From NCBI RefSeq assembly GCF_014250515.1, contig NZ_CP060202.1:1795001-1859000 (forward strand): a stretch of DNA of 64,000 nucleotides, written 5' to 3'. Source of the stretch: Hymenobacter sediminicola (GTDB lineage: Bacteria > Bacteroidota > Bacteroidia > Cytophagales > Hymenobacteraceae). The notes beneath the pieces were generated by a model. That model saw nothing but the letters and a program-made list of their open reading frames with translations. It was not told the DNA's origin and made no database searches. This document shows positions 1,538-35,586 of this stretch, piece by piece; positions within the stretch are counted from its first letter, which is position 1, and the number at the start of each line of letters is the position of its first letter. The translations under genes and the position numbers were made by a program.

Positions 1538-2968
1538 TTACTCACCGCCATAGCGGCTTTTGCCTCCGCCGCCGGCATCCATGCGCACGATGCGCGGCGT
1601 GAAAGAGCCCAGCACATCCACTAGGTCGCGCTGGTGGGCCATCACCTGATGAATGTCTTTGTAGGCCATCGGGGCCTCGTCAAGCCCGCCCCCAATCAGC
1701 TCGATACCATGGTCGCGCAGGTGGCGGCGCACGTCGCCTTCGGAAAGGTTCTGCTTGGCCTGGGTGCGCGACATTCTGCGGCCCGCCCCATGCGAAGCCG
1801 ACTGAATGGAGTCCCGCTCGCCGCGCCCCCGCACAATAAAGCCGGGAGCCGTCATCGAGCCCGGAATGACTCCCAGCACTCCTTTTCCGGCCGGCGTAGC
1901 GCCCTTGCGGTGCACTATGGCTTCCCGGCCATCGGGCAGCGTTTCTTTCCAGGCAAAGTTGTGGTGATTCTCTACTTTGGCCAGCGGCTTTTCGCCCAGC
2001 GCCTGGCTTAGGCGGCGGTGGATGTCGCGGTGGCAGGCCGAGGCGTAGTCGCCGGCCAGGTTCATGGCTGCCCAGTATTCCTGGCCTTCCTGGCTGTCGA
2101 GGTCGAGCCAGGCCAGGTAGCGGGCTTCGGGCGGCAGCGGGCACTTGCTCATGGCCACTTTGGTGTAGTGCTGCGCAATGGCCGCGCCCAGCCCCCGCGA
2201 ACCGGAGTGCGAAAGCAGCCCCAGATACTGGCCGGGCGCCAGGTCCAAGTCGTTGTCGTCGTCGGTGATTTCGACGACGCCCCACTCCACGAAGTGGTTG
2301 CCGGAGCCCGACGAGCCGAGCTGGTTGTAGGCCGCGTCGCGCTTGCCGCGCACCACCGCAATTTCTCTGAACTCGGGACGCTCCAGAATAGGGTCGTCAG
2401 TCGGATTCTTGAACACTTCCTTGCCGCCGAAACGAGTGTGGTTGTGCAGCAGCTTTTTCAGTTCCTGTGTATGCTGGTCCAGATAATGGGACGGCACCGG
2501 AAACACCGACAGCGCCATCCGGCAGCCAATATCCATGCCCACGCCGTAGGGAATCACGGCATTGTCAACGGCCAGCACGCCTCCGATGGGCAGGCCGTAG
2601 CCCTGGTGCGCATCGGGCATCAGGGCGCCATCCAGCGTCACGGGGAGCTGCATGGCGGTGTCCATCTGGCGGCGCGCACCGTCCTCAATAAACGCCTCGC
2701 CGTAGCGGCGGTAGTCCTTGATTTCGGAGTTGAGCGTCACGTCGCGTTTGGGGTCGGGCACGAATTCCTTCGCCAGCTCCCGCCACAGCGAGTCGCGCAG
2801 GTAGGCATACGGGTCGGCTTTAATTTTCTGGAGCAACGCCAGCGCGCTGCCTTTATCGAGGGTTTTGAGTTGGCGGTCTTCCAGAATGTTGAGTGCCAGC
2901 GTGGTGGCGCGGCCTTCGGGGAAGCCTATTTTGCGTAAGTCGTTGCCGCGCAGTTTGGAGGTGGCCAT
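1538..2968 (-). CDS. rtcB: RNA ligase RtcB (first paralogue in the window)
   Basis: A 476-residue RtcB. This family joins RNA 2',3'-cyclic phosphate or 3'-phosphate ends to 5'-OH ends using GTP and Mn2+. Visible landmarks are the metal-binding Cys149 in MDIGCRM, the GSSGSGNHFVEWG block, HSGSRG, the NHHNFAW block, and His393 in SASHGAGRRMSR, the expected guanylylated histidine. The start at 2968 (MATSKLRGNDLRKIGFPEG) aligns with the second copy at 34183. It stands alone, divergent from selO, with no Ro60 or RtcA gene beside it. A glycine-rich tail follows the final conserved FTPRIVRM. The family call is secure. Its division of labour with the second copy is unknown. Confidence 0.95.
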   Translation of the reverse strand: MATSKLRGNDLRKIGFPEGRATTLALNILEDRQLKTLDKGSALALLQKIKADPYAYLRDSLWRELAKEFVPDPKRDVTLNSEIKDYRRYGEAFIEDGARRQMDTAMQLPVTLDGALMPDAHQGYGLPIGGVLAVDNAVIPYGVGMDIGCRMALSVFPVPSHYLDQHTQELKKLLHNHTRFGGKEVFKNPTDDPILERPEFREIAVVRGKRDAAYNQLGSSGSGNHFVEWGVVEITDDDNDLDLAPGQYLGLLSHSGSRGLGAAIAQHYTKVAMSKCPLPPEARYLAWLDLDSQEGQEYWAAMNLAGDYASACHRDIHRRLSQALGEKPLAKVENHHNFAWKETLPDGREAIVHRKGATPAGKGVLGVIPGSMTAPGFIVRGRGERDSIQSASHGAGRRMSRTQAKQNLSEGDVRRHLRDHGIELIGGGLDEAPMAYKDIHQVMAHQRDLVDVLGSFTPRIVRMDAGGGGKSRYGGE

Positions 2969-3177
2969 GGGAGAACAGGGGAGGGTGGAGCCTGTTGTAG
3001 CGCTGATTGGCGGCCCGGGGTTATGGACGAGCTACTCACCGGCCGCCCGCGCCGGCTGGCGCAAACCCAACCGAAACAAGCACCCTCGTTCTGCGTTGTC
3101 GAACTTGCGGCATAGCTTATCAGCCGTGGCCCATTGGCCGACCGGCGGCTGTGCCCGCATCAATCCTCTCGTTTTTT

Positions 3178-4785
3178 ATGCCTGATATGTTGCAGTCTCT
3201 CGATAAAGCTTTGTTTCAGAACTCCTTCGTGGAGGAAATGCGCGGCGAAGCATCCATGGACCAAAGCCCACGCCAGGTGCCGGGCTACCACTATTCGCGG
3301 GTGCTGCCCACGCCCGTTGCTGATCCGCAGCTGCTGGCCTGGTCTGAGGAGCTGGCGGCTTTTCTGGGGCTGGAGCGGCCGCCGGAACGCGGCCCGGCTG
3401 TGGATGCGCTGGCCGGCAACCTCGTGACGGACACCATGAAGCCGTTTGCCGCGCGCTACGGCGGGCACCAGTTCGGTAACTGGGCCGGCCAACTCGGCGA
3501 CGGCCGGGCTATGTCGCTGGGCGAGCTGACGGCTACTGATGGGACGCCGTGGGAAATTCAGCTGAAGGGAGCGGGCCCCACGCCCTACTCGCGCCGCGCC
3601 GATGGGCGCGCCGTGCTGCGTTCCTCGGTGCGCGAGTTTCTCTGCTCCGAGGCCATGCACTACCTCGGCGTGCCCACTACCCGCGCCCTAAGCCTGGTGC
3701 GCACCGGCGACATGGTGGTGCGCGACATGTTTTATGATGGCAACGCCCGTCCTGAGCCCGGGGCCGTGGTGGCGCGCGTAGCGCCCACGTTCGTGCGTTT
3801 CGGCAACTTCCAGATTCTGGCGGCCCACGGCGAAAAAGAGAATCTGCAGGCGCTGGCCGACTACGTTATTCGGCGCTATTACCCCGAACTGGGCGCGCCT
3901 TCGCCGGCCGTGTATGTGCAGTGGCTGGAGGAAGTGTGCCGCCGCACCGCCGTGATGATAGCGCACTGGCAGTCGGTGGGGTTTGTGCATGGCGTGATGA
4001 ACACCGACAACATGTCCATCCTCGGCCTCACCATCGACTACGGCCCCTACGGCTGGCTGGAACCCTACGACCCCGACTGGACGCCCAACACCACCGATTT
4101 TGGCGGGCGGCGCTACGCTTTTGGGCAGCAGCCGCGCGTGGCCCTCTGGAACCTGATGATGCTAGCCCAAGCTCTGATTCCGTTGGTGGAGGACGTGCAG
4201 ACGCTGCGCACCGCACTGGACCAATACGTGACTACCCTGAACGAAACCCAGCACCGCATGATGCTGCGTAAGCTCGGTCTTACCGCAGCAGCAGAAGCGG
4301 CCGAAGCAGATGGCGCGCTGCTTAGTGCCCTACCCGAAGCCCTGGCGGAAGCCGAAGCCGATATGACCCTGTTTTTCCGCCATCTGTCCCACGCGGCTCC
4401 GTCCTTGGTTACGCATCCAGCTATAGAAGAAGCCGTGCTGCAGGAACTGCTAGAAGCCACTTCTTATACCGAAGCGCCGGAGAAGCACCAGAAGCTGCGG
4501 GAGTGGCTGGGGCAGTATACGCTACGACTCCGGCAGGAAACCGCGCCGCCGGAAGAAATACGGGCCGGTATGCTTGCCGCCAACCCCAAATATGTATTGC
4601 GCAACTACCTCGCCCAGCAGGCTATTGAGGCCGCCGGAACCGGCGACCTGACGCTACTGAACCGCCTGATGCTGGTGCTCAAAAAGCCCTTCGCTGAGCA
4701 GCCCGAGCACGACGACCTAGCTGCCAAACGCCCGGACTGGGCCCGCGAAAAGCCCGGCAGCGCTACGCTTTCGTGCAGCTCGTAA
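3178..4785 (+). CDS. selO: Protein adenylyltransferase SelO (YdiU family)
   Basis: A 535-residue protein with the hallmarks of the SelO pseudokinase-fold AMPylators, which transfer AMP from ATP to Ser/Thr/Tyr of target proteins, including redox enzymes. Signature stretches are RYGGHQFGNWAGQLGDGRA, KGAGPTPYSRRADG, the HGVMNTDNMS catalytic-loop region, and the NTTDFGGRRYAFGQQP segment. The frame is open upstream to 3007, but the first ATG giving a family-like N-terminus is at 3178 (MPDMLQSLDK). The gene ends without the C-terminal selenocysteine/Cys known from eukaryotic homologues, although a Cys lies four residues from the end (SCSS). It is monocistronic, with a strong terminator just downstream. 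Confidence 0.93.
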   Translation: MPDMLQSLDKALFQNSFVEEMRGEASMDQSPRQVPGYHYSRVLPTPVADPQLLAWSEELAAFLGLERPPERGPAVDALAGNLVTDTMKPFAARYGGHQFGNWAGQLGDGRAMSLGELTATDGTPWEIQLKGAGPTPYSRRADGRAVLRSSVREFLCSEAMHYLGVPTTRALSLVRTGDMVVRDMFYDGNARPEPGAVVARVAPTFVRFGNFQILAAHGEKENLQALADYVIRRYYPELGAPSPAVYVQWLEEVCRRTAVMIAHWQSVGFVHGVMNTDNMSILGLTIDYGPYGWLEPYDPDWTPNTTDFGGRRYAFGQQPRVALWNLMMLAQALIPLVEDVQTLRTALDQYVTTLNETQHRMMLRKLGLTAAAEAAEADGALLSALPEALAEAEADMTLFFRHLSHAAPSLVTHPAIEEAVLQELLEATSYTEAPEKHQKLREWLGQYTLRLRQETAPPEEIRAGMLAANPKYVLRNYLAQQAIEAAGTGDLTLLNRLMLVLKKPFAEQPEHDDLAAKRPDWAREKPGSATLSCSS

Positions 4786-4800
4786 ACAGGCAGTAGCTAC

Positions 4801-4841
4801 ACAAGAGAAAGGCCCTGGCAATGCCGGGGCCTTTCTCTTGT
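4801..4841. terminator. Bidirectional terminator hairpin
   Basis: A near-perfect inverted repeat (arms of about 15 bp, ACAAGAGAAAGGCCC and its complement) lies between the convergent selO and pirin-like genes, with A-rich and T-rich flanks that suit termination in both directions. Confidence 0.85.
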
Positions 4842-4861
4842 AAATCAGGATGAATTACAGG

Positions 4862-5563
4862 TTACTGGGTGTTGTTTTTCAGCTCCAGCAGCAGCACCAG
4901 CGCATTGTTGCTCAGCGCTTCCAGCTCCACTTCTTCGGTGTGCCACAGCGCCAGCCCGTCTTTTTCGTGCAGCAGCCGGCCTTCCACCTCGAAAGCGCCG
5001 GCAATGACGAAGGTGAACAGCTGCGCCTTTGCGTCAAGCTGGTAATCGGCCTCATGGCGTCCTGCAAACCGGCCCAGGCTCAGCGAAAACAAGCGGGTGT
5101 CGGTGGCCGGAATTACCGTTGCAAGTTGGTTTTCCAGCTCCGGCAGGCTGAACGCAAAGGTTTGAGCCGCCTCCGGGGCGGCTGAGTCCCCATTCAGCCA
5201 GATATGCAGGAAGGTAATCTGCTCCTCGCTGTAAGGATTCGTGAAGCAGATGGTGCTGCCGGCGGCCACACGCAGCAGCTGAATTTCCTCTACCTGCACC
5301 TGTGTCTGCCGGCGCCCCACGCCAGCGCTGACTGTGCCGGTGATGGGCAGAATAAGTACCTGGGCATCCTGCTCCGCTGTGATTTTCAGGTGGCTGCCGC
5401 CGGCCAGCATTTCCTCGTTCAGCGCATGCAGGCGGCCAAACGGCCCTTTGTGCTCGTGGGCATACGGCCCGAAGCTGAAGGTGCTGTAGCGCCGGAACTG
5501 GCTGGTTTCGAGCAGGCCGCGCTGCTCCGCCAGGAAAATCTTGCCGGGTGTCTGCCGAATCAT
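4862..5563 (-). CDS. Pirin-like bicupin protein (YhaK type)
   Basis: A 233-residue protein built from two cupin-like halves. The N-terminal half contains PGKIFLAEQRG and the FSFGPYAHEHKGPFG segment typical of Bacteroidota pirin/quercetinase-like proteins. The C-terminal half (about residues 130-230) fits the C-terminal cupin of YhaK-type proteins. Biochemical function in this family is poorly defined; redox sensing or quercetin dioxygenase side activity has been reported for relatives. The gene lies directly downstream of an unknown gene on the same strand with one base between stop and start, suggesting cotranscription and perhaps translational coupling. Confidence 0.8.
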   Translation of the reverse strand: MIRQTPGKIFLAEQRGLLETSQFRRYSTFSFGPYAHEHKGPFGRLHALNEEMLAGGSHLKITAEQDAQVLILPITGTVSAGVGRRQTQVQVEEIQLLRVAAGSTICFTNPYSEEQITFLHIWLNGDSAAPEAAQTFAFSLPELENQLATVIPATDTRLFSLSLGRFAGRHEADYQLDAKAQLFTFVIAGAFEVEGRLLHEKDGLALWHTEEVELEALSNNALVLLLELKNNTQ

Positions 5564-5564
5564 G

Positions 5565-6071
5565 CTATGCGGCCGGGTGAAGAGCGTGAATGGAAAGAAA
5601 AGGCTGGAGCTGCACCAGATGCGTTGGCACCTCCTGGCCCGCCGCCGTAAGCGCCTGCTCCGACACCAGCAAGTGCGTGCCGATGGTTTCGTGCCACACC
5701 AGCGGGTCGGAGTAGAAGTTGATGGCTACCTGGTGCCGGAATTTATCGGCGAGGTCGGAGTTGATGATTTCGAACTGAAACCGGCTGAATTTCAGAAAGT
5801 GCCGGCCCAAATTATCCGTCACGTCCGGCACCAGCCCCTGCAGCTGCGGCAGGTAGCCGCGCACCGCTGCACTCACCAGAAAATGCAGCTTTTCGGCACC
5901 GGGTGCATGCTGCAGCAGCTGCCCAAACGTGCGGTACTGCCCCTGCTGATTGAAGTATTGCGCCTGCATCCGAAATTCCGCGTACGTGTCCTCAAACACC
6001 AGCTTGTCCCACGGCTTGGTGGAAGCGGTATCAATGATTTTGCGGTAGCACAGCGTGATGATGCGGTTCAT
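5565..6071 (-). CDS. Conserved-looking hypothetical protein, 168 aa
   Basis: A 168-residue soluble protein without recognised motifs. It begins MNRIITLCYRKIIDTAS, is rich in aromatic residues, and has no signal peptide or membrane span. Its stop lies one base from the start of the pirin-like gene, so the two probably form an operon. It may be a partner of, or accessory to, the pirin, but nothing in the sequence shows a mechanism. Confidence 0.7.
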   Translation of the reverse strand: MNRIITLCYRKIIDTASTKPWDKLVFEDTYAEFRMQAQYFNQQGQYRTFGQLLQHAPGAEKLHFLVSAAVRGYLPQLQGLVPDVTDNLGRHFLKFSRFQFEIINSDLADKFRHQVAINFYSDPLVWHETIGTHLLVSEQALTAAGQEVPTHLVQLQPFLSIHALHPAA

Positions 6072-6204
6072 GAGGTAGAATTGCGGAATGGTGAAATGGT
6101 GGGCTGGTGGGGAGGAGGCTGGGTTCTGGCTTTTATAGGGACAAGCGAGAAGTAAAGCCTCCGCCTTTTCTATCCCGTCAACTCACCACTTTACCATGCT
6201 GTCT

Positions 6205-6909
6205 TTATGCCGGCACAGCCAGCGAAATCGACAGTTCGAAGCCGGCGCTGGTGCTGCCCGTGACGGTAGCCAGTTCCTGCGCTACCCCGTCGCTGAAGAC
6301 GTTGTCCTGGGCGTTGGTGGTGTAGCCGTTCAGGCCTTTGGTATAGCCGTTTACAGCCGCTACAGCCGTGCCGGTGCCCTCAGGGAAGGCAATCTGCGTC
6401 ACTTTCAGCGACTGGCCGCTGGCCGAATACACGTGCACATGAATGTGGGTGGCGCGGCCCGAGTACCAGCCGGGGAAGATGCTCGTGAAAGTTACCAGGC
6501 CATTAGCATCGGTGGTCTGGCGGCCGCGCAGGAAGTGCACGCTCTGGTAGTTGGTGCTCTGCATGCCGGTGCCGCCGTACTCCGAGTAGTTTCCTTCGGC
6601 GTCGCAGTGCCAGATATCGACCAGCGCGCCGGCCAGCGGAACGCAGCTGCTGTTCGTGATGGTGATTTTGGCGGCCATAGCGTAGCCCGACTTGTTGTCG
6701 CGGATGTCGCTACGCACGTAGGAGGCGGGTACTTTGGTCGGGAACGGACCTTCTGTTTCGGTAGGTGCTACGGTGCAACTGCCGGAGCCGGTGCCGCCTG
6801 TAGTATCGGGGGTAGGCGTCACGTCATCTTCTTTGCCGCAGGCAGAAAGCAGAACGGGCGTAGACATAGCGCCGACCAGCAGGCTTTTTAAAAAGTGCTT
6901 TCTTTCCAT
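6205..6909 (-). CDS. Intradiol ring-cleavage dioxygenase-like lipoprotein
   Basis: A 234-residue exported protein. A lipoprotein signal (hydrophobic core, then LLSACGK) is followed by a Gly/Thr-rich linker and an intradiol dioxygenase fold. Family motifs are TEGPFPT, DIWHCDAEGNYSEYGG (first tyrosine ligand), FLRGRQTTDANG, and SIFPGWYSGRATHIHVHV, which supplies the second Tyr and the His-x-His iron ligands. All four ligands of protocatechuate/catechol dioxygenases therefore seem present. An exported, lipid-anchored version is common in Bacteroidota; its natural aromatic substrate is unknown. No other aromatic-degradation genes are nearby. The gene diverges from the NCS1 transporter. Confidence 0.85.
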   Translation of the reverse strand: MERKHFLKSLLVGAMSTPVLLSACGKEDDVTPTPDTTGGTGSGSCTVAPTETEGPFPTKVPASYVRSDIRDNKSGYAMAAKITITNSSCVPLAGALVDIWHCDAEGNYSEYGGTGMQSTNYQSVHFLRGRQTTDANGLVTFTSIFPGWYSGRATHIHVHVYSASGQSLKVTQIAFPEGTGTAVAAVNGYTKGLNGYTTNAQDNVFSDGVAQELATVTGSTSAGFELSISLAVPA

Positions 6910-7157
6910 GAGAGTGAAGGGTTAGGTGTTGGAGTGAGTTGCTGTTCGAATTTGCGCCTATCCATCCGCACTACACCCCTGCAATCGACCAGCCGGCAGT
7001 TTGTGCCGATAGATGCCGTGCTTTTTTCGCCAGGCAAAGGGGCAGAATATCCTGCTATGAGCCAGCGCAGGCCGCAGCGGGAAGTTTCCGGCTGGTTGAG
7101 GGCCAAATACTTGCGCATTCTGCTTTATTTACTACCTCAACCCTTCGCGCCTCTGCC

Positions 7158-8666
<1,509 letters not shown>

Positions 8667-31385: not shown

Positions 31386-32912
31386 ATGCGCTTCAATTTA
31401 CCCTTCCGCAAAACACAGCCCACCACAACCAACCACGAAGGGGCAGCGGCTTTCACGCTTACTCCAGAGGTGGAGCTGTATGCTGCCGTGGCAACTGCAG
31501 CACTATCAGATCAGTTTTATGAGTCGGCGGAAACGCGGCTGGTGCGCCTGCGGGAATTGGTGGCCCAGTGTGAGCCGGTATTTGTAGCCCGGCTTGCCGT
31601 GTACGCCCGTGAGCGGATGTACCTACGTTCGGTGCCGCTGGTGCTGGCCGTGGAGCTGGCCCGCCAGCACCGCGGCAACAGCCTTGTAAGCCGCTTGGTG
31701 GCTCGCATTGTGCAGCGCCCCGACGAAATAACGGAGCTGCTGGCCTTCTATGCGCAGGCCAACCAGCGGGCGGGCCGCAAAACGCTCAACCGCCTGTCCA
31801 AGCAGTTGCAAAAAGGCCTGGCCCTCAGCTTCAACCGCTTCGACGGCTACCAGCTGGCCAAGTACGACCGGGCCGGGGCCGTGCGTTTGCGCGACGCGCT
31901 GTTTCTGGTGCACCCTGCCGCCAAAAGCCTCGAGCAGCAAGCCTTGTTCGACCAGCTGGTGGCCGGTACCCTGCCTACGCCCTACACTTGGGAAACCGAG
32001 TTGTCGGCGCTGGGGCAGGTGCAATACGCTACGCCGGCAGAGCGCGCCGCGGCTTTCCGCCTGAAATGGACGGAGCTGATTGGCAGCGGCAAGCTGGGCT
32101 ACATGGCCCTGCTGCGTAACCTGCGCAACATTCTCGAAGCCGACGTGTCGGCGGAGACGATGGTGGACGTGTGCGCCGCGCTGGCCGACCGGTTTGCCGT
32201 GGCGCGCAGCAAGCAGCTGCCGTTCCGCTTCCTGGCCGCTTACCGCGAGGTAAAGGCCTTGGAAGGCGGGCACGTGTCGGCGGTGCTGGCGGCCCTGGAA
32301 GATGCCATTGCGCATAGCGCTGCCAACCTGCGTGGCTTCGGCCCCGAAACCCGCGTGGTCATTGCCTGCGACGTATCGGGCTCGATGCAGCAGCCGGTGT
32401 CTCAGCGCAGTAAAGTGCTGCTCTACGACGTGGGCCTGGTGCTGGGTATGTTGCTGCAAAGCCGCTGCCAGCACGTAACGGCCGGCATGTTCGGCAACAC
32501 GTGGAAGCGCCTGAGCCTGCCTCGTGGGCCAGTACTGCGCAACGTGGACGAGTTCTACCGCCGCGAAGGGGAGGTAGGCTACAGCACCAACGGCTACCTC
32601 GTGCTCGAGGACCTGCGCCACCGCCGCGAGGTGGTCGACAAGGTGATGATGTTCACGGACTGCCAGCTCTGGAACTCAAACTGCAACGGCAGTTCGGTGG
32701 CGAAGGAGTGGGCAGAGTACCGCCGCACGGTAGCACCGCAGGCCCGCCTGTACCTCTTCGACCTGGCCGGCCACGGCACTGCTCCCCTCGACGTACGCGC
32801 TGAGGAGGGAGTGGCCCTGATTGCCGGCTGGTCAGATAAGGTGTTTGAGGTGCTGGCCTCGCTGGAAAGCGGCGGCTCGGCCCTCACCGAAATCAATACC
32901 ATTGACTTGTAA
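31386..32912 (+). CDS. rsr: Ro60 orthologue, TROVE domain protein (Rsr)
   Basis: A 508-residue Ro60-type protein. The N-terminal two thirds is an alpha-helical TROVE ring (FYESAETRLVRLRELVAQCE, ARLAVYARERMYLRSVPL, and a later HEAT-like series), which in characterised homologues binds Y RNAs on its outer surface and single-stranded RNA ends in its hole. The C-terminal third is a von Willebrand A-like domain with a MIDAS motif DVSGS starting at Asp329. ATG 31386 (MRFNLPFRKT) is used; an upstream TTG-type start is unlikely. It is followed by an array of Y RNA-like units and then rtcB, matching the known rsr/Y RNA/rtcB association, so a role in RNA quality control or repair is inferred. Confidence 0.92.
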   Translation: MRFNLPFRKTQPTTTNHEGAAAFTLTPEVELYAAVATAALSDQFYESAETRLVRLRELVAQCEPVFVARLAVYARERMYLRSVPLVLAVELARQHRGNSLVSRLVARIVQRPDEITELLAFYAQANQRAGRKTLNRLSKQLQKGLALSFNRFDGYQLAKYDRAGAVRLRDALFLVHPAAKSLEQQALFDQLVAGTLPTPYTWETELSALGQVQYATPAERAAAFRLKWTELIGSGKLGYMALLRNLRNILEADVSAETMVDVCAALADRFAVARSKQLPFRFLAAYREVKALEGGHVSAVLAALEDAIAHSAANLRGFGPETRVVIACDVSGSMQQPVSQRSKVLLYDVGLVLGMLLQSRCQHVTAGMFGNTWKRLSLPRGPVLRNVDEFYRREGEVGYSTNGYLVLEDLRHRREVVDKVMMFTDCQLWNSNCNGSSVAKEWAEYRRTVAPQARLYLFDLAGHGTAPLDVRAEEGVALIAGWSDKVFEVLASLESGGSALTEINTIDL

Positions 32913-32922
32913 CTCCTGCCGC

Positions 32923-32967
32923 CCCGGAAGTGGCCAGAAACCATACAAAGCGGCGGCCACTTCCGGG
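32923..32967 (+). other. Stable hairpin just after rsr
   Basis: 13-bp perfect arms (CCCGGAAGTGGCC and complement) enclose a 19-base loop, beginning 10 bases after the rsr stop. There is no T-run after it, so it is not a standard terminator. It may stabilise the rsr mRNA 3' end after processing or attenuate readthrough into the array. Confidence 0.65.
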
Positions 32968-33066: not shown

Positions 33067-33111
33067 GGAACGGCGGGGCGCCGGGGCACTGTGGCTCCGG
33101 CCAGCCGTTCC
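33067..33111 (+). ncRNA. Structured hairpin at the leading edge of the Y RNA array
   Basis: GGAACGGC / GCCGTTCC (8 bp) encloses an inner GCCGG/CCGGC helix. It directly abuts unit 1 of the array (33115). It lacks the UGCCGUA and UUGC core of the other units, so it is not counted as a Y RNA. A short CGGCTG/CAGCCG hairpin lies just upstream (33037-33060). Confidence 0.5.
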
Positions 33112-33114
33112 AAA

Positions 33115-33240
33115 CCGGCTGAGCCACCGTTCGGGTGCCGTAGGCGGGCGTTACGGGTTCGAGTTCCGCGCCTGTGCTGCGGCACCAGCAGGAAAACATA
33201 CGTCGGCCGCTCGTTGCCCCGAACCGGTGGTTTCAGCCGG
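33115..33240 (+). ncRNA. Y RNA-like unit 1
   Basis: The closing helix is very long: CCGGCTGA/TCAGCCGG, CCACC/GGTGG and GTTCGGG/CCCGAAC, about 20 bp. The core is TGCCGTAGG opposite CTCGTTGC. Inside is a T-arm-like hairpin with loop TTCGAGT (33154-33168) and a TGCTG/CAGCA hairpin where an acceptor stem would be. No D-arm is recognisable, so the tRNA mimicry is incomplete. Confidence 0.7.
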
Positions 33241-33251
33241 ATATTATAACC

Positions 33252-33387
33252 CTACCGGGTGCCGTCGGAAAGCATTCCTTCGGGTCATACGTTCGAATCG
33301 TATCAGTCGGGCTTACAGGCCTGGTTGTAGCTCAGATGGTAGAGCAGAAAGGCTTCGGCCGCCGCTTTTCACCAGTTGCCCCGGTAG
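33252..33387 (+). ncRNA. Y RNA-like unit 2 with permuted tRNA-like domain
   Basis: Closing helix CTACCGGG/CCCGGTAG; core TGCCGTCGG opposite CCAGTTGC. The inside reads as a circularly permuted tRNA: anticodon-stem 3' strand CCTTC (33277-33281), variable loop GGGTC, a perfect T-arm ATACG-TTCGAAT-CGTAT (33287-33303), a 9-bp acceptor helix (33304-33312 with 33319-33327) capped by TTACAG, TA at positions 8-9, D-arm GCTC-AGATGGTA-GAGC (33330-33345), A26, and anticodon 5' strand GAAAG. All spacings match tRNA numbering. Confidence 0.82.
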
Positions 33388-33405
33388 TGTAGTTGTTTAT
33401 TTCCA

Positions 33406-33543
33406 GCGTAGGTGCCGTAACCGGGCCATACTTCGCCATCCAATAGGTTCTGTCGCGGGTTCGACTCCCGAAGTCATGCTGCAAGGCGTGACGCCTGAAA
33501 ATGGTAGGGCAGACCAGTTAGCCGGGTGCCTGTTGCCCTACGC
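33406..33543 (+). ncRNA. Y RNA-like unit 3 with permuted tRNA-like domain
   Basis: Closing helix GCGTAGG/CCTACGC; core TGCCGTAA opposite CTGTTGC. The tRNA-like part has GGTT (33446-33449) pairing with GACC (33512-33515) as anticodon-like stem, variable loop CTGTC, T-arm CGGG-TTCGACT-CCCG (33456-33470), a 7-bp acceptor GTCATGC/GCGTGAC capped by TGCAAG, and a D-arm GCCT/GGGC (33493-33510) with a GG-containing loop. The acceptor and D-stem sequences differ from the neighbouring units, yet the pairing is preserved. Confidence 0.8.
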
Positions 33544-33557
33544 CGAAAATCAAACAG

Positions 33558-33702
33558 GAAAGCGGGTGCCGTAGCCGGGCCATACTTCGGCTGTCCAGGT
33601 CGTGGGTTCGATTCCCGCCGGTAGCTGCCTCAGGGCAGTGGTCGTAGCTCAGTCAGGTAGAGCAGGATATAAGAGGCCTGGCGTCTGTTGCCCCGCACTT
33701 TC
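33558..33702 (+). ncRNA. Y RNA-like unit 4 with permuted tRNA-like domain
   Basis: Closing helix GAAAG-CGGG/CCCG-CA-CTTTC; core TGCCGTAG opposite CTGTTGC. The tRNA-like part is the clearest of the set: anticodon-like stem TGTCC (33592-33596) with GGATA (33665-33669), variable loop AGGTC, T-arm GTGGG-TTCGATT-CCCGC (33602-33618), an 11-position acceptor helix with one mismatch (33619-33629 with 33634-33644) capped by TCAG, TA at positions 8-9, and D-arm GCTC-AGTCAGGTA-GAGC (33647-33663). Confidence 0.85.
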
Positions 33703-33705
33703 TTT

Positions 33706-33840
33706 ACCTGGCCGGTGCCGTAGCGAAGCCCTACTTCGTTTAGGTTGATGGGGTCGTGGGGTCGCGGCCCACCTGCCGCAGGGCAGTAGCTCAGTTGGTT
33801 AGAGCACATATGGGCTTCGCAGCTTATTGCCCGGTCAGGT
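33706..33840 (+). ncRNA. Y RNA-like unit 5 with permuted tRNA-like domain
   Basis: The closing helix is 10 bp, ACCTGGCCGG/CCGGTCAGGT; core TGCCGTAG opposite CTTATTGC, where a U-A pair replaces the U.G wobble of other units. Inside are a CGAAG/CTTCG hairpin, T-arm GTGGG-GTCGCGG-CCCAC (33756-33772; the loop departs from TTCGA), a 5-bp acceptor CTGCC/GGCAG capped by GCAG, TA, and D-arm GCTC-AGTTGGTTA-GAGC (33789-33805). The D-arm flank and TGATGGGGTC resemble an elongator tRNA-Met body. Confidence 0.82.
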
Positions 33841-33847
33841 TCGTTTC

Positions 33848-33952
33848 AGGATGCCGAAAAGTGGCGTAAGAAAGTCATACTTCGGGCTGCAGTGGCCGAA
33901 CAGGCCATTGTGGCAAAGCAGATTCTCTGGCTGGTTCCCTTTTCTGTGTCCT
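33848..33952 (+). ncRNA. Y RNA-like unit 6, no tRNA-like domain
   Basis: AGGATGCCGAAAAG (33848-33861) pairs with CTTTTCTGTGTCCT (33939-33952) over 14 positions with a single C.U mismatch at the core. The 5' core is GCCGAA; the usual 3' UUGC is absent. Inside is CAGTGGCC/GGCCATTG, a simple 8-bp hairpin, instead of T-, acceptor- and D-arms. It also retains the CATACTTCGG motif. Confidence 0.6.
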
Positions 33953-33960
33953 TTCTCAGC

Positions 33961-34049
33961 TCCGGATGCCGTAGGTCCGCGTTACTTCGACCTGTCTAGT
34001 CCCTTGGCCCTCTTCTGGGCCAGATGCGTGGGCCACCTGTTGCTCCGGA
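33961..34049 (+). ncRNA. Y RNA-like unit 7, no tRNA-like domain
   Basis: TCCGGA/TCCGGA closes the unit, followed inward by bulged U and GCCGTAGGT opposite ACCTGTTGC: G-C, C-G, C.U, G.U, U.G, A-U, G-C, G-C, U-A. The inside is short, with TGGCCC/GGGCCA forming a hairpin. This is the smallest unit (89 nt) and the last before rtcB, whose start is 134 bases further on. Confidence 0.7.
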
Positions 34050-34182: not shown

Positions 34183-35586
34183 ATGGCCTCACAACTACGG
34201 GGCAACGACCTTCGCCAACTTGGATTTCCCGAAGGCCGTGCCATTGGCTTGGCGCTGGCTCAATTGCAGCGCAAGCATCTCAAAAAACTTTCACAAACCG
34301 ACCAGCTCACGCTACTCAAAGACCTGTTGGATACCCCAACGAACTACCTCACACACCTCGACTGGAGCCATACAGCTGCTGCGCTGCTGCCCGCGCCCAG
34401 CCGGCACATTGCCCTGGCCGCCCGCAAAGACTACGCCGTGTTCGGGGCCGAATACATCGAGCAAGGCGCCATCCATCAGATGGAAACGGCCATGAAACTG
34501 CCCGTCACGGTGGCTGGGGCTCTTATGCCCGATGCCCACCACGGCTACGGCCTGCCCATCGGGGGCGTGCTGGCTACTGATAATGCCGTGATTCCCTACG
34601 CCGTGGGTGTGGACATCGGGTGCCGGATGGCGTTGTCGGTGTTTGCGTTGCCGCCCAAGCACCTAGAACAGCGGGTGCAGGAGCTACGCAAGCTGCTACT
34701 GGAGCATACTCGTTTCGGCAACAAGCAGGGTTTCCAGCGCGGCCAGAAACTAGACCATGCAGTGCTGGAGCGCGACGAATTCCGGGACATCGGGTTTCTG
34801 CGCAACAAGCAGGCTACTGCTGCCGAGCAGATTGGCACCTCCGGCGGCGGCAACCACTTCGTGGAGTGGGGCGTCGTCGACATCACCGACCCTTCAAACG
34901 AGTTGGGGGTGCCGGTGGGCCAATATCTGGGGCTACTTTCGCACTCCGGCTCCCGGGGGCTAGGCGCGAGTGTGGCTAACCACTACACCAAGCTCGCCAA
35001 AGATGTGTGCCAGCTGCCTGCCGAAGCGCAGCACCTGGCTTGGCTTTCCCTGGAAAGTGAGGCCGGGCAGGAATACTGGGCGGCTATGAACTTGGCCGGT
35101 GACTACGCTTCGGCTTGCCACCACCAGATTCATCAGCGGCTGGCTAAAGCCTTGGGCGAGCGTCCGTTGGCGAAAATGGAAAACCACCACAACTTTGCCT
35201 GGAAAGAGCACCTCGCCGACGGACGCAAAGTCATTGTGCACCGTAAGGGCGCTACGCCGGCCGGCAAAGGCGTGCTGGGTATCATTCCCGGCTCGATGAC
35301 GGCTCCCGGCTTTATTGTGCGGGGGCGGGGTGAGGCGGCTTCGCTGTCGTCGGCTTCGCACGGGGCCGGCCGGGCTATGTCCCGGACTCGTGCCAAACTG
35401 GAGCTGGGCGAAGCCGAAGTCCGGCGCTACCTGCAGCAGCACCATATCGAGCTGATTGGCGGTGGCGTTGACGAAGCTCCGCAGGCCTACAAGGACATCC
35501 GGGCCGTGATGGCCAGCCAGACAGAACTGGTGGATGTGCTGGGCTCTTTCACGCCGCGTATTGTGCGCATGGAAGGTGGCTCCTGA
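34183..35586 (+). CDS. rtcB: RNA ligase RtcB (second paralogue, Ro60-linked)
   Basis: A 467-residue RtcB, closely similar to the copy at 1538-2968 but without the glycine-rich C-terminal tail. Landmarks are Cys147 in VDIGCRM, the GTSGGGNHFVEWG block, HSGSRG, the NHHNFAW block, and His393 in ASHGAGRAMSR for covalent guanylate. The enzyme seals 2',3'-cyclic or 3'-phosphate RNA ends to 5'-OH ends. It follows rsr and the Y RNA-like array in the same direction, and a terminator lies 16 bases after the stop, so it probably ends the operon. No RtcA cyclase or RtcR regulator is adjacent, unlike enterobacterial operons. Confidence 0.95.
   Translation: MASQLRGNDLRQLGFPEGRAIGLALAQLQRKHLKKLSQTDQLTLLKDLLDTPTNYLTHLDWSHTAAALLPAPSRHIALAARKDYAVFGAEYIEQGAIHQMETAMKLPVTVAGALMPDAHHGYGLPIGGVLATDNAVIPYAVGVDIGCRMALSVFALPPKHLEQRVQELRKLLLEHTRFGNKQGFQRGQKLDHAVLERDEFRDIGFLRNKQATAAEQIGTSGGGNHFVEWGVVDITDPSNELGVPVGQYLGLLSHSGSRGLGASVANHYTKLAKDVCQLPAEAQHLAWLSLESEAGQEYWAAMNLAGDYASACHHQIHQRLAKALGERPLAKMENHHNFAWKEHLADGRKVIVHRKGATPAGKGVLGIIPGSMTAPGFIVRGRGEAASLSSASHGAGRAMSRTRAKLELGEAEVRRYLQQHHIELIGGGVDEAPQAYKDIRAVMASQTELVDVLGSFTPRIVRMEGGS

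Follow-up and report, generated by a model that had tools for sequence, protein, structure and literature searches.

The interval between the genes for Ro60 and the RNA ligase RtcB in Hymenobacter sediminicola probably encodes an expanded array of YrlA-type Y RNAs, whose tRNA-like modules would act as adaptors that link partners binding the tRNA body to Ro60 in the handling of damaged tRNA. The array is of a known kind (bacterial Y RNA, YrlA), multiplied into a panel here and in relatives. Three of its units (2, 4 and 5) carry a T arm, a capped acceptor helix and a D arm in permuted order, opening on the anticodon side. This permuted topology is already known from YrlA (PDB 6CU1).

We identified a Ro60/Rsr protein gene at 31386..32912 on the plus strand (Pfam TROVE PF05731, E=5.2e-29; vWA_Ro60 PF25045) of the window, the whole stretch of 64,000 nucleotides that was analyzed (G000:C1:1795001-1859000). 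The gene is present in a single copy genome-wide, and its product shares up to 89% identity with named Hymenobacter Ro60 proteins. A gene for an RtcB RNA ligase (Pfam RtcB PF01139, E=1.2e-83) is located at 34183..35586, also on the plus strand. Six Y RNA units are clear in the 1.27 kb between the two genes, and one more is possible. No calls were made in this interval by ARAGORN (native order) or by Rfam at curated cut-offs. The minus strand encodes another RtcB paralogue (window 1571-2962), which shares 66% identity with the RtcB at 34183-35586. Directly 3' of the Ro60 stop codon, a repeat search identified a 13-bp perfect inverted repeat (32923..32967, plus strand) that is possibly a terminator or processing hairpin; no T run follows it. 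Another strong inverted repeat, GGAACGGC...GCCGTTCC, lies at 33067-33111, in the gap between Ro60 and unit 1, and is not obviously a Y RNA.

All units are on the plus strand. Scores are given in bits for R1, a covariance model built for class I modules, and for R2, the corresponding class II model. Unit 2 (33252..33387) has a terminal helix with 8/8 pairs and a permuted class I tRNA module at 33277-33351 (R1 68.2 bits; structural descriptor score 29; Rfam YrlA E=1.4e-3). Unit 4 (33562..33696) contains a permuted class I module at 33592-33669 (R1 71.8 bits; descriptor score 29; Rfam YrlA E=7.8e-7), and its minimum-energy fold includes the anticodon stem, T arm, acceptor and D arm. Unit 5 (33706..33840; terminal helix 8/8) has a permuted module at 33746-33811 (R1 60.1 bits; Rfam YrlA E=5.4e-5). 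Its acceptor helix has 5 bp and a GCAG cap, and the descriptor match required a relaxed acceptor length. The T loop of this unit is non-canonical (GTCGCGG versus TTCRANN), and its minimum-energy fold has another hairpin in place of the T arm. Unit 3 (33404..33544; terminal helix 7/8) carries a degenerate permuted module at 33445-33516, which scored 18.4 bits with R1 versus 60-72 for units 2, 4 and 5. Its T-stem pair 49-65 is G-A, and the clean dinucleotide at positions 8-9 is missing.

The remaining units lack a clear tRNA module. Unit 1 (33124..33230) has a terminal helix with 7/8 pairs and the TGCCGTA...GTTGC signature; its inner part gave no match to R1 in a search to E 10, and a weak match to R2 (12.1 bits). 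The possible unit 6 (33846..33937; fold z=-3.6) has a partial CATACTTCGG motif and no tRNA module. Its Ro60 motif is atypical and was missed by the strict motif scan. The short unit 7 (33961..34049; fold z=-2.9) has a 7/8 terminal helix and the TGCCGTA...GTTGC signature, again without a tRNA module. A search of the window with R2 identified no class II unit, the top match (23.6 bits) being unit 5.

An earlier note on this DNA had described units 2-5 as circularly permuted tRNAs in exact tRNA register, repeating the YrlA topology four times with different sequences. Several of its details were confirmed by reading the sequence directly: the variable loops (GGGTC, CTGTC, AGGTC and GGGTC) before T arms with 7-nt loops, TA at positions 8-9 in units 2, 4 and 5, GG in the D loops, and A at base 26. 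The coordinates and order of the permuted elements are also as claimed, cleanly so in units 2, 4 and 5, but unit 3 is degenerate. When the pieces of each unit were put back into tRNA order, joined by a neutral anticodon loop, ARAGORN identified units 2, 4 and 5 as tRNAs and did not identify unit 3 as one. Because unit 3 fails this test and has a low bit score, the claim of exact register is right for three of the four units. Likewise, the fourfold repetition holds in three units (2, 4 and 5) and is weak in the remaining one. The evidence supports the note's interpretation as right in kind, with unit 3 as the weak case.

The un-permutation result extends to the genus. Among the 111 modules of the genus whose acceptor can accommodate 7 pairs, ARAGORN called a tRNA in all 111 once they were un-permuted, in none after shuffling, and in 5 in native order. 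Independently of the descriptor, the Rfam YrlA model (RF02553) gave scores of 39.3, 33.0, 28.0 and 14.8 bits, all below its gathering cut-off of 69 bits. The descriptor score of 29 for units 2 and 4 compares with 24 for the best match in 10 dinucleotide-shuffled 64-kb windows (both strands). Folding energy was dropped as a line of evidence: units 1-4 are no more stable than shuffled sequences (z from -0.2 to -1.1; unit 5, -4.1). Stability alone is thus insufficient, and the claim rests on comparative evidence. The YrlA-type topology asserted in the note is borne out by the Rfam matches, the ARAGORN un-permutation, covariation in the helices and at the 15-48 pair, and the neighboring Ro60 gene.

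We matched the Ro60 protein in 72 of 101 sampled genomes of the genus, a few of these 72 matches being fragments. In most retrieved loci Ro60 is followed by a module-bearing interval and then RtcB, all on one strand. R1 identified 158 matches above 41 bits across 71 loci. In two genomes (G098 and G040) Ro60 is in fragments and array remnants are still present; loci L098 and L099 combine fragmentary Ro60 and array remnants with an intact RtcB, as if the system were being lost.

Evidence for a tRNA fold comes from covariation. In 38 non-redundant class I modules, 93.0% of helix cells are paired, although the modules were preselected by the descriptor, which required the T stem and acceptor and merely added the anticodon stem to the score, so this percentage is biased upward for the T stem and acceptor. 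The covariation score is 0.688, versus 0.09-0.16 for slid partners. All four helices covary, including the anticodon stem, in which pair 27-43 is formed in 38/38 modules with CG, GC, UA and AU exchanges, and pair 28-42 is UA in 22 and CG in 15 of the 38. At the Levitt pair 15-48, the 133 class I sequences have 116 G-C and 14 A-U combinations, and the 35 class II sequences have 17 and 18, respectively (these are counts of sequences, not of independent events); in class I, A-U arose in all three module types. Nearly all modules have T loops of the form TTCRANN (T54, T55, C56 and A58) and D loops with GG. On this comparative evidence, the permuted RNA appears to retain the tRNA fold down to a tertiary base pair.

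Covariation also bears on the reading of the units as tRNA pseudogenes in decay or as inverted repeats that arose by chance. Degeneration is indeed seen in unit 3 and in parts of unit 5, and junctions of tandem tRNA genes mimic permuted tRNAs in the covariance model. This reading is contradicted by two-sided covariation in all helices and at the tertiary pair, and the module order is kept across the genus, with modules restricted to Ro60 loci. We consider it extremely improbable.

In 345 of 431 units, 7 or 8 of the 8 terminal-helix positions are paired, with all pair types represented, compared with 19% for swapped strands. Every unit has its own covarying terminal helix, and the helix flanks the invariant TGCCGTA and GTTGC (UGCCGUA...GUUGC in RNA). 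From its position and conservation, we infer that this motif is the putative Ro60 binding site. The claim that the ends of each RNA run into a Ro60-type helix agrees with this arrangement, in which a covarying terminal helix surrounds the invariant motif. Loci contain 2-10 Y RNA units, most commonly 6. Unit lengths are bimodal (short, 70-100 nt; main, 120-150 nt), and the short units of the window are those without a tRNA module.

The permuted order and the adjacent RtcB might instead indicate permuted tRNA genes that RtcB matures into working tRNAs, the ends being ligated at the anticodon and the acceptor loop cut. There is precedent in algal and archaeal permuted tRNA genes, which mature via circles, have the 3' half before the 5' half as here, and likely originated by tandem duplication (PMC3978253). 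Those genes are broken within the tRNA at splice motifs and yield working tRNAs, whereas the ends of the modules here continue into the Ro60 helix and the acceptor is capped. The modules have no conserved U33 and no anticodon-loop pattern. Their acceptor helices range from 5 to 13 bp and are closed by short caps; of 158 distinct hairpins, 105 have a 4-nt loop, often UNCG or GNRA. The absence of U33 and these acceptors led us to reject bona fide permuted tRNA genes, and maturation by RtcB is very improbable.

Class I modules occur as types A, B and C, told apart by the sequence of the anticodon stem. Types A and C are present at most once per locus, B is doubled in 5 loci, and the usual module order is A-(L or S)-B-C. 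A plainer explanation is that interchangeable units tether PNPase to Ro60 and that the array merely increases the amount of Y RNA. The terminal helix motif is common to all units, as this would predict, and a Ro60-Y RNA-PNPase machine has been described (PMC8394870, PMC8058203). However, several types are maintained, ordered and mostly single in each locus, which points to different roles and argues against mere dosage. We thus regard dosage as unlikely.

A further set of modules resembles class II tRNAs. Relatives have 35 modules with a D arm of tRNA-Leu type (TGGCGAAATTGGTAGACGC) or resembling that of tRNA-Ser; one Leu-like example lies at L036:4658-4745 on the minus strand. In several, the TGGCGAAATTGGTAGACGC D arm is identical to that of the tRNA-Leu(cag) of this genome. 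At the site of the long variable arm of class II tRNAs, these modules have a hairpin of highly variable sequence (e.g., GAGCCC-AACC-GGGCTC, GTATCC-AAGC-GGATAC and AGTTCT-GTAA-AGAATT). Three of the 35 have a Leu/Ser-type D arm and no convincing long variable arm, and were excluded from the class II alignment. With R2, 41 of the 71 loci gave a total of 47 matches scoring above 52 bits. When 3-7 bp hairpins directly adjoining the T arm were compared with shuffles, p was below 0.05 for 34% of class II modules and for 4.5% of class I modules; pair counts likewise separated the two classes. A looser score for a long variable arm did not separate them and was discarded.

In the adaptor mechanism that we favor, each unit would be transcribed as a single small RNA, roughly 90-145 nt long, with both ends pairing as the terminal helix and the UGCCGUA/GUUGC motif held by Ro60. 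The distal end of units 2, 4 and 5 (that of unit 3 having apparently decayed) would form a circularly permuted tRNA, with the chain entering and leaving via the anticodon stem. The acceptor helix would be closed by a short cap, with no CCA end, and the T and D arms would form the tRNA elbow. Such a module could be bound by enzymes that read the tRNA body, and would be neither chargeable nor decoding. By analogy with known Y RNAs, the units are thus probably adaptors attached to Ro60, with a tRNA-like end that would recruit or occupy tRNA-body enzymes and bring them to Ro60, beside the RtcB ligase, where damaged tRNA may be handled. Candidate partners are PNPase (as in the Ro60 machine), pseudouridine and dihydrouridine synthases, and perhaps tRNA nucleases. 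The coexistence of several divergent module types in one locus suggests more than one partner or client class of tRNA.

The main rival to the adaptor reading is a panel of decoys. The mimics would occupy tRNA-cleaving ribonucleases or toxins with affinity for the tRNA body, acting as uncuttable competitive inhibitors (without an anticodon loop they could not be cleaved there), and RtcB would rejoin the cut tRNAs. Anticodon nucleases usually recognize the anticodon loop, yet the mimics lack this usual target. The position of RtcB next to the array in the window, the distinct conserved types (class II included) and the sets of ordinary tRNA genes in other Bacteroidota Ro60 loci, which would fit replacement of damaged tRNAs, are all consistent with decoys. 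A decoy role has already been suggested for YrlA (PMC7790460), but in Salmonella this role is a proposal, and no nuclease is tied to the array. Overall, the decoy explanation is possible but rather doubtful.

Permuted modules were also identified in Ro60 loci of other Cytophagales families, Chitinophaga, Flavobacterium (usually one module), Spirosoma, Saprospiraceae and Chryseobacterium. In some Bacteroidota Ro60 loci, 3 to 17 tRNA genes of ordinary order are interleaved with Y RNA motifs (L272 at 2012-8535, L282 at 6261-7567, L191, L199, L187 and L183; 17 genes in L272, 9 in L282 and 11 in L191). They represent many amino acids, and some have odd bodies (e.g., a Leu anticodon without a long variable arm). 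Two adjoining tRNA genes of the Ro60 locus L191 (2636-2789, reverse strand coordinates) share the anticodon arm CTTGACTCATAATCAAG and have different bodies. The ordinary-order genes may be auxiliary tRNAs. It is quite possible, though short of probable, that Ro60 loci of Hymenobacter and other Bacteroidota hold a panel of class-specific permuted mimics (class I, Leu and Ser) that would serve as decoys or adaptors in a tRNA-damage response, some of them together with auxiliary tRNA genes.

Candidate Y RNA arrays in genomes whose Ro60 is missing or broken were rejected: the three best R1 loci checked there, outside the Ro60 locus, are tandem tRNA genes (Val-Val, Ala-Ala and Lys-Lys). Junctions that resemble a permuted tRNA to the covariance model are found at G000:C1:4419103-4419272, L153, L154 and L155 (Val-Val, Lys-Lys, Ala-Ala). 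A tandem junction joins the 3' half of one gene to the 5' half of its neighbor, with the spacer as acceptor loop, and is thus itself a permuted tRNA. This suggests that the modules may have originated from tandem tRNA gene junctions. An origin by tandem duplication was already proposed for permuted tRNA genes (PMC3978253).

The permuted tRNA domain of YrlA, described as circular in topology (PMC11472068), is known (6CU1; PMC11472068, PMC8394870), and YrlA is modified by tRNA enzymes (PMC8394870, PMC8058203). In Salmonella YrlA (RF02553, 6CU1), a Ro60-binding stem likewise bears a permuted tRNA module made up of T arm, capped acceptor and D arm, and the YrlA gene is located between rsr and the rtc genes, as the array here lies between Ro60 and RtcB. 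However, YrlA is one tRNA-mimic unit, whereas here there are several per locus, with sequences too divergent to reach the Rfam cut-off; the order of types A, B and C is maintained, and relatives have class II (Leu/Ser-like) modules with long variable arms. The Salmonella rsr-yrlBA-rtcBA operon, which is induced by tRNA fragments (PMC7790460), similarly combines Ro60, Y RNAs and RtcB. It has two Y RNAs versus 6-7 units here, and neither rtcA nor rtcR was identified beside the array within the window. The Deinococcus Ro60-Y RNA-PNPase machine shares Ro60 and a modular Y RNA adaptor with this system; here there are multiple module types, and PNPase is a candidate partner. In the literature searched, we found no description of many-membered conserved Y RNA arrays (2-10 units per locus, in ordered orthologous types), of class II permuted mimics, or of Ro60 loci that also include tRNA genes; the principal YrlA papers lay outside this search, and part may be described there.

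The many divergent orthologous mimics per locus make the role of the tRNA-like end of bacterial Y RNAs testable, the question being whether different mimics bind different tRNA-acting enzymes. The findings also suggest that permuted mimics may derive from tandem tRNA genes.
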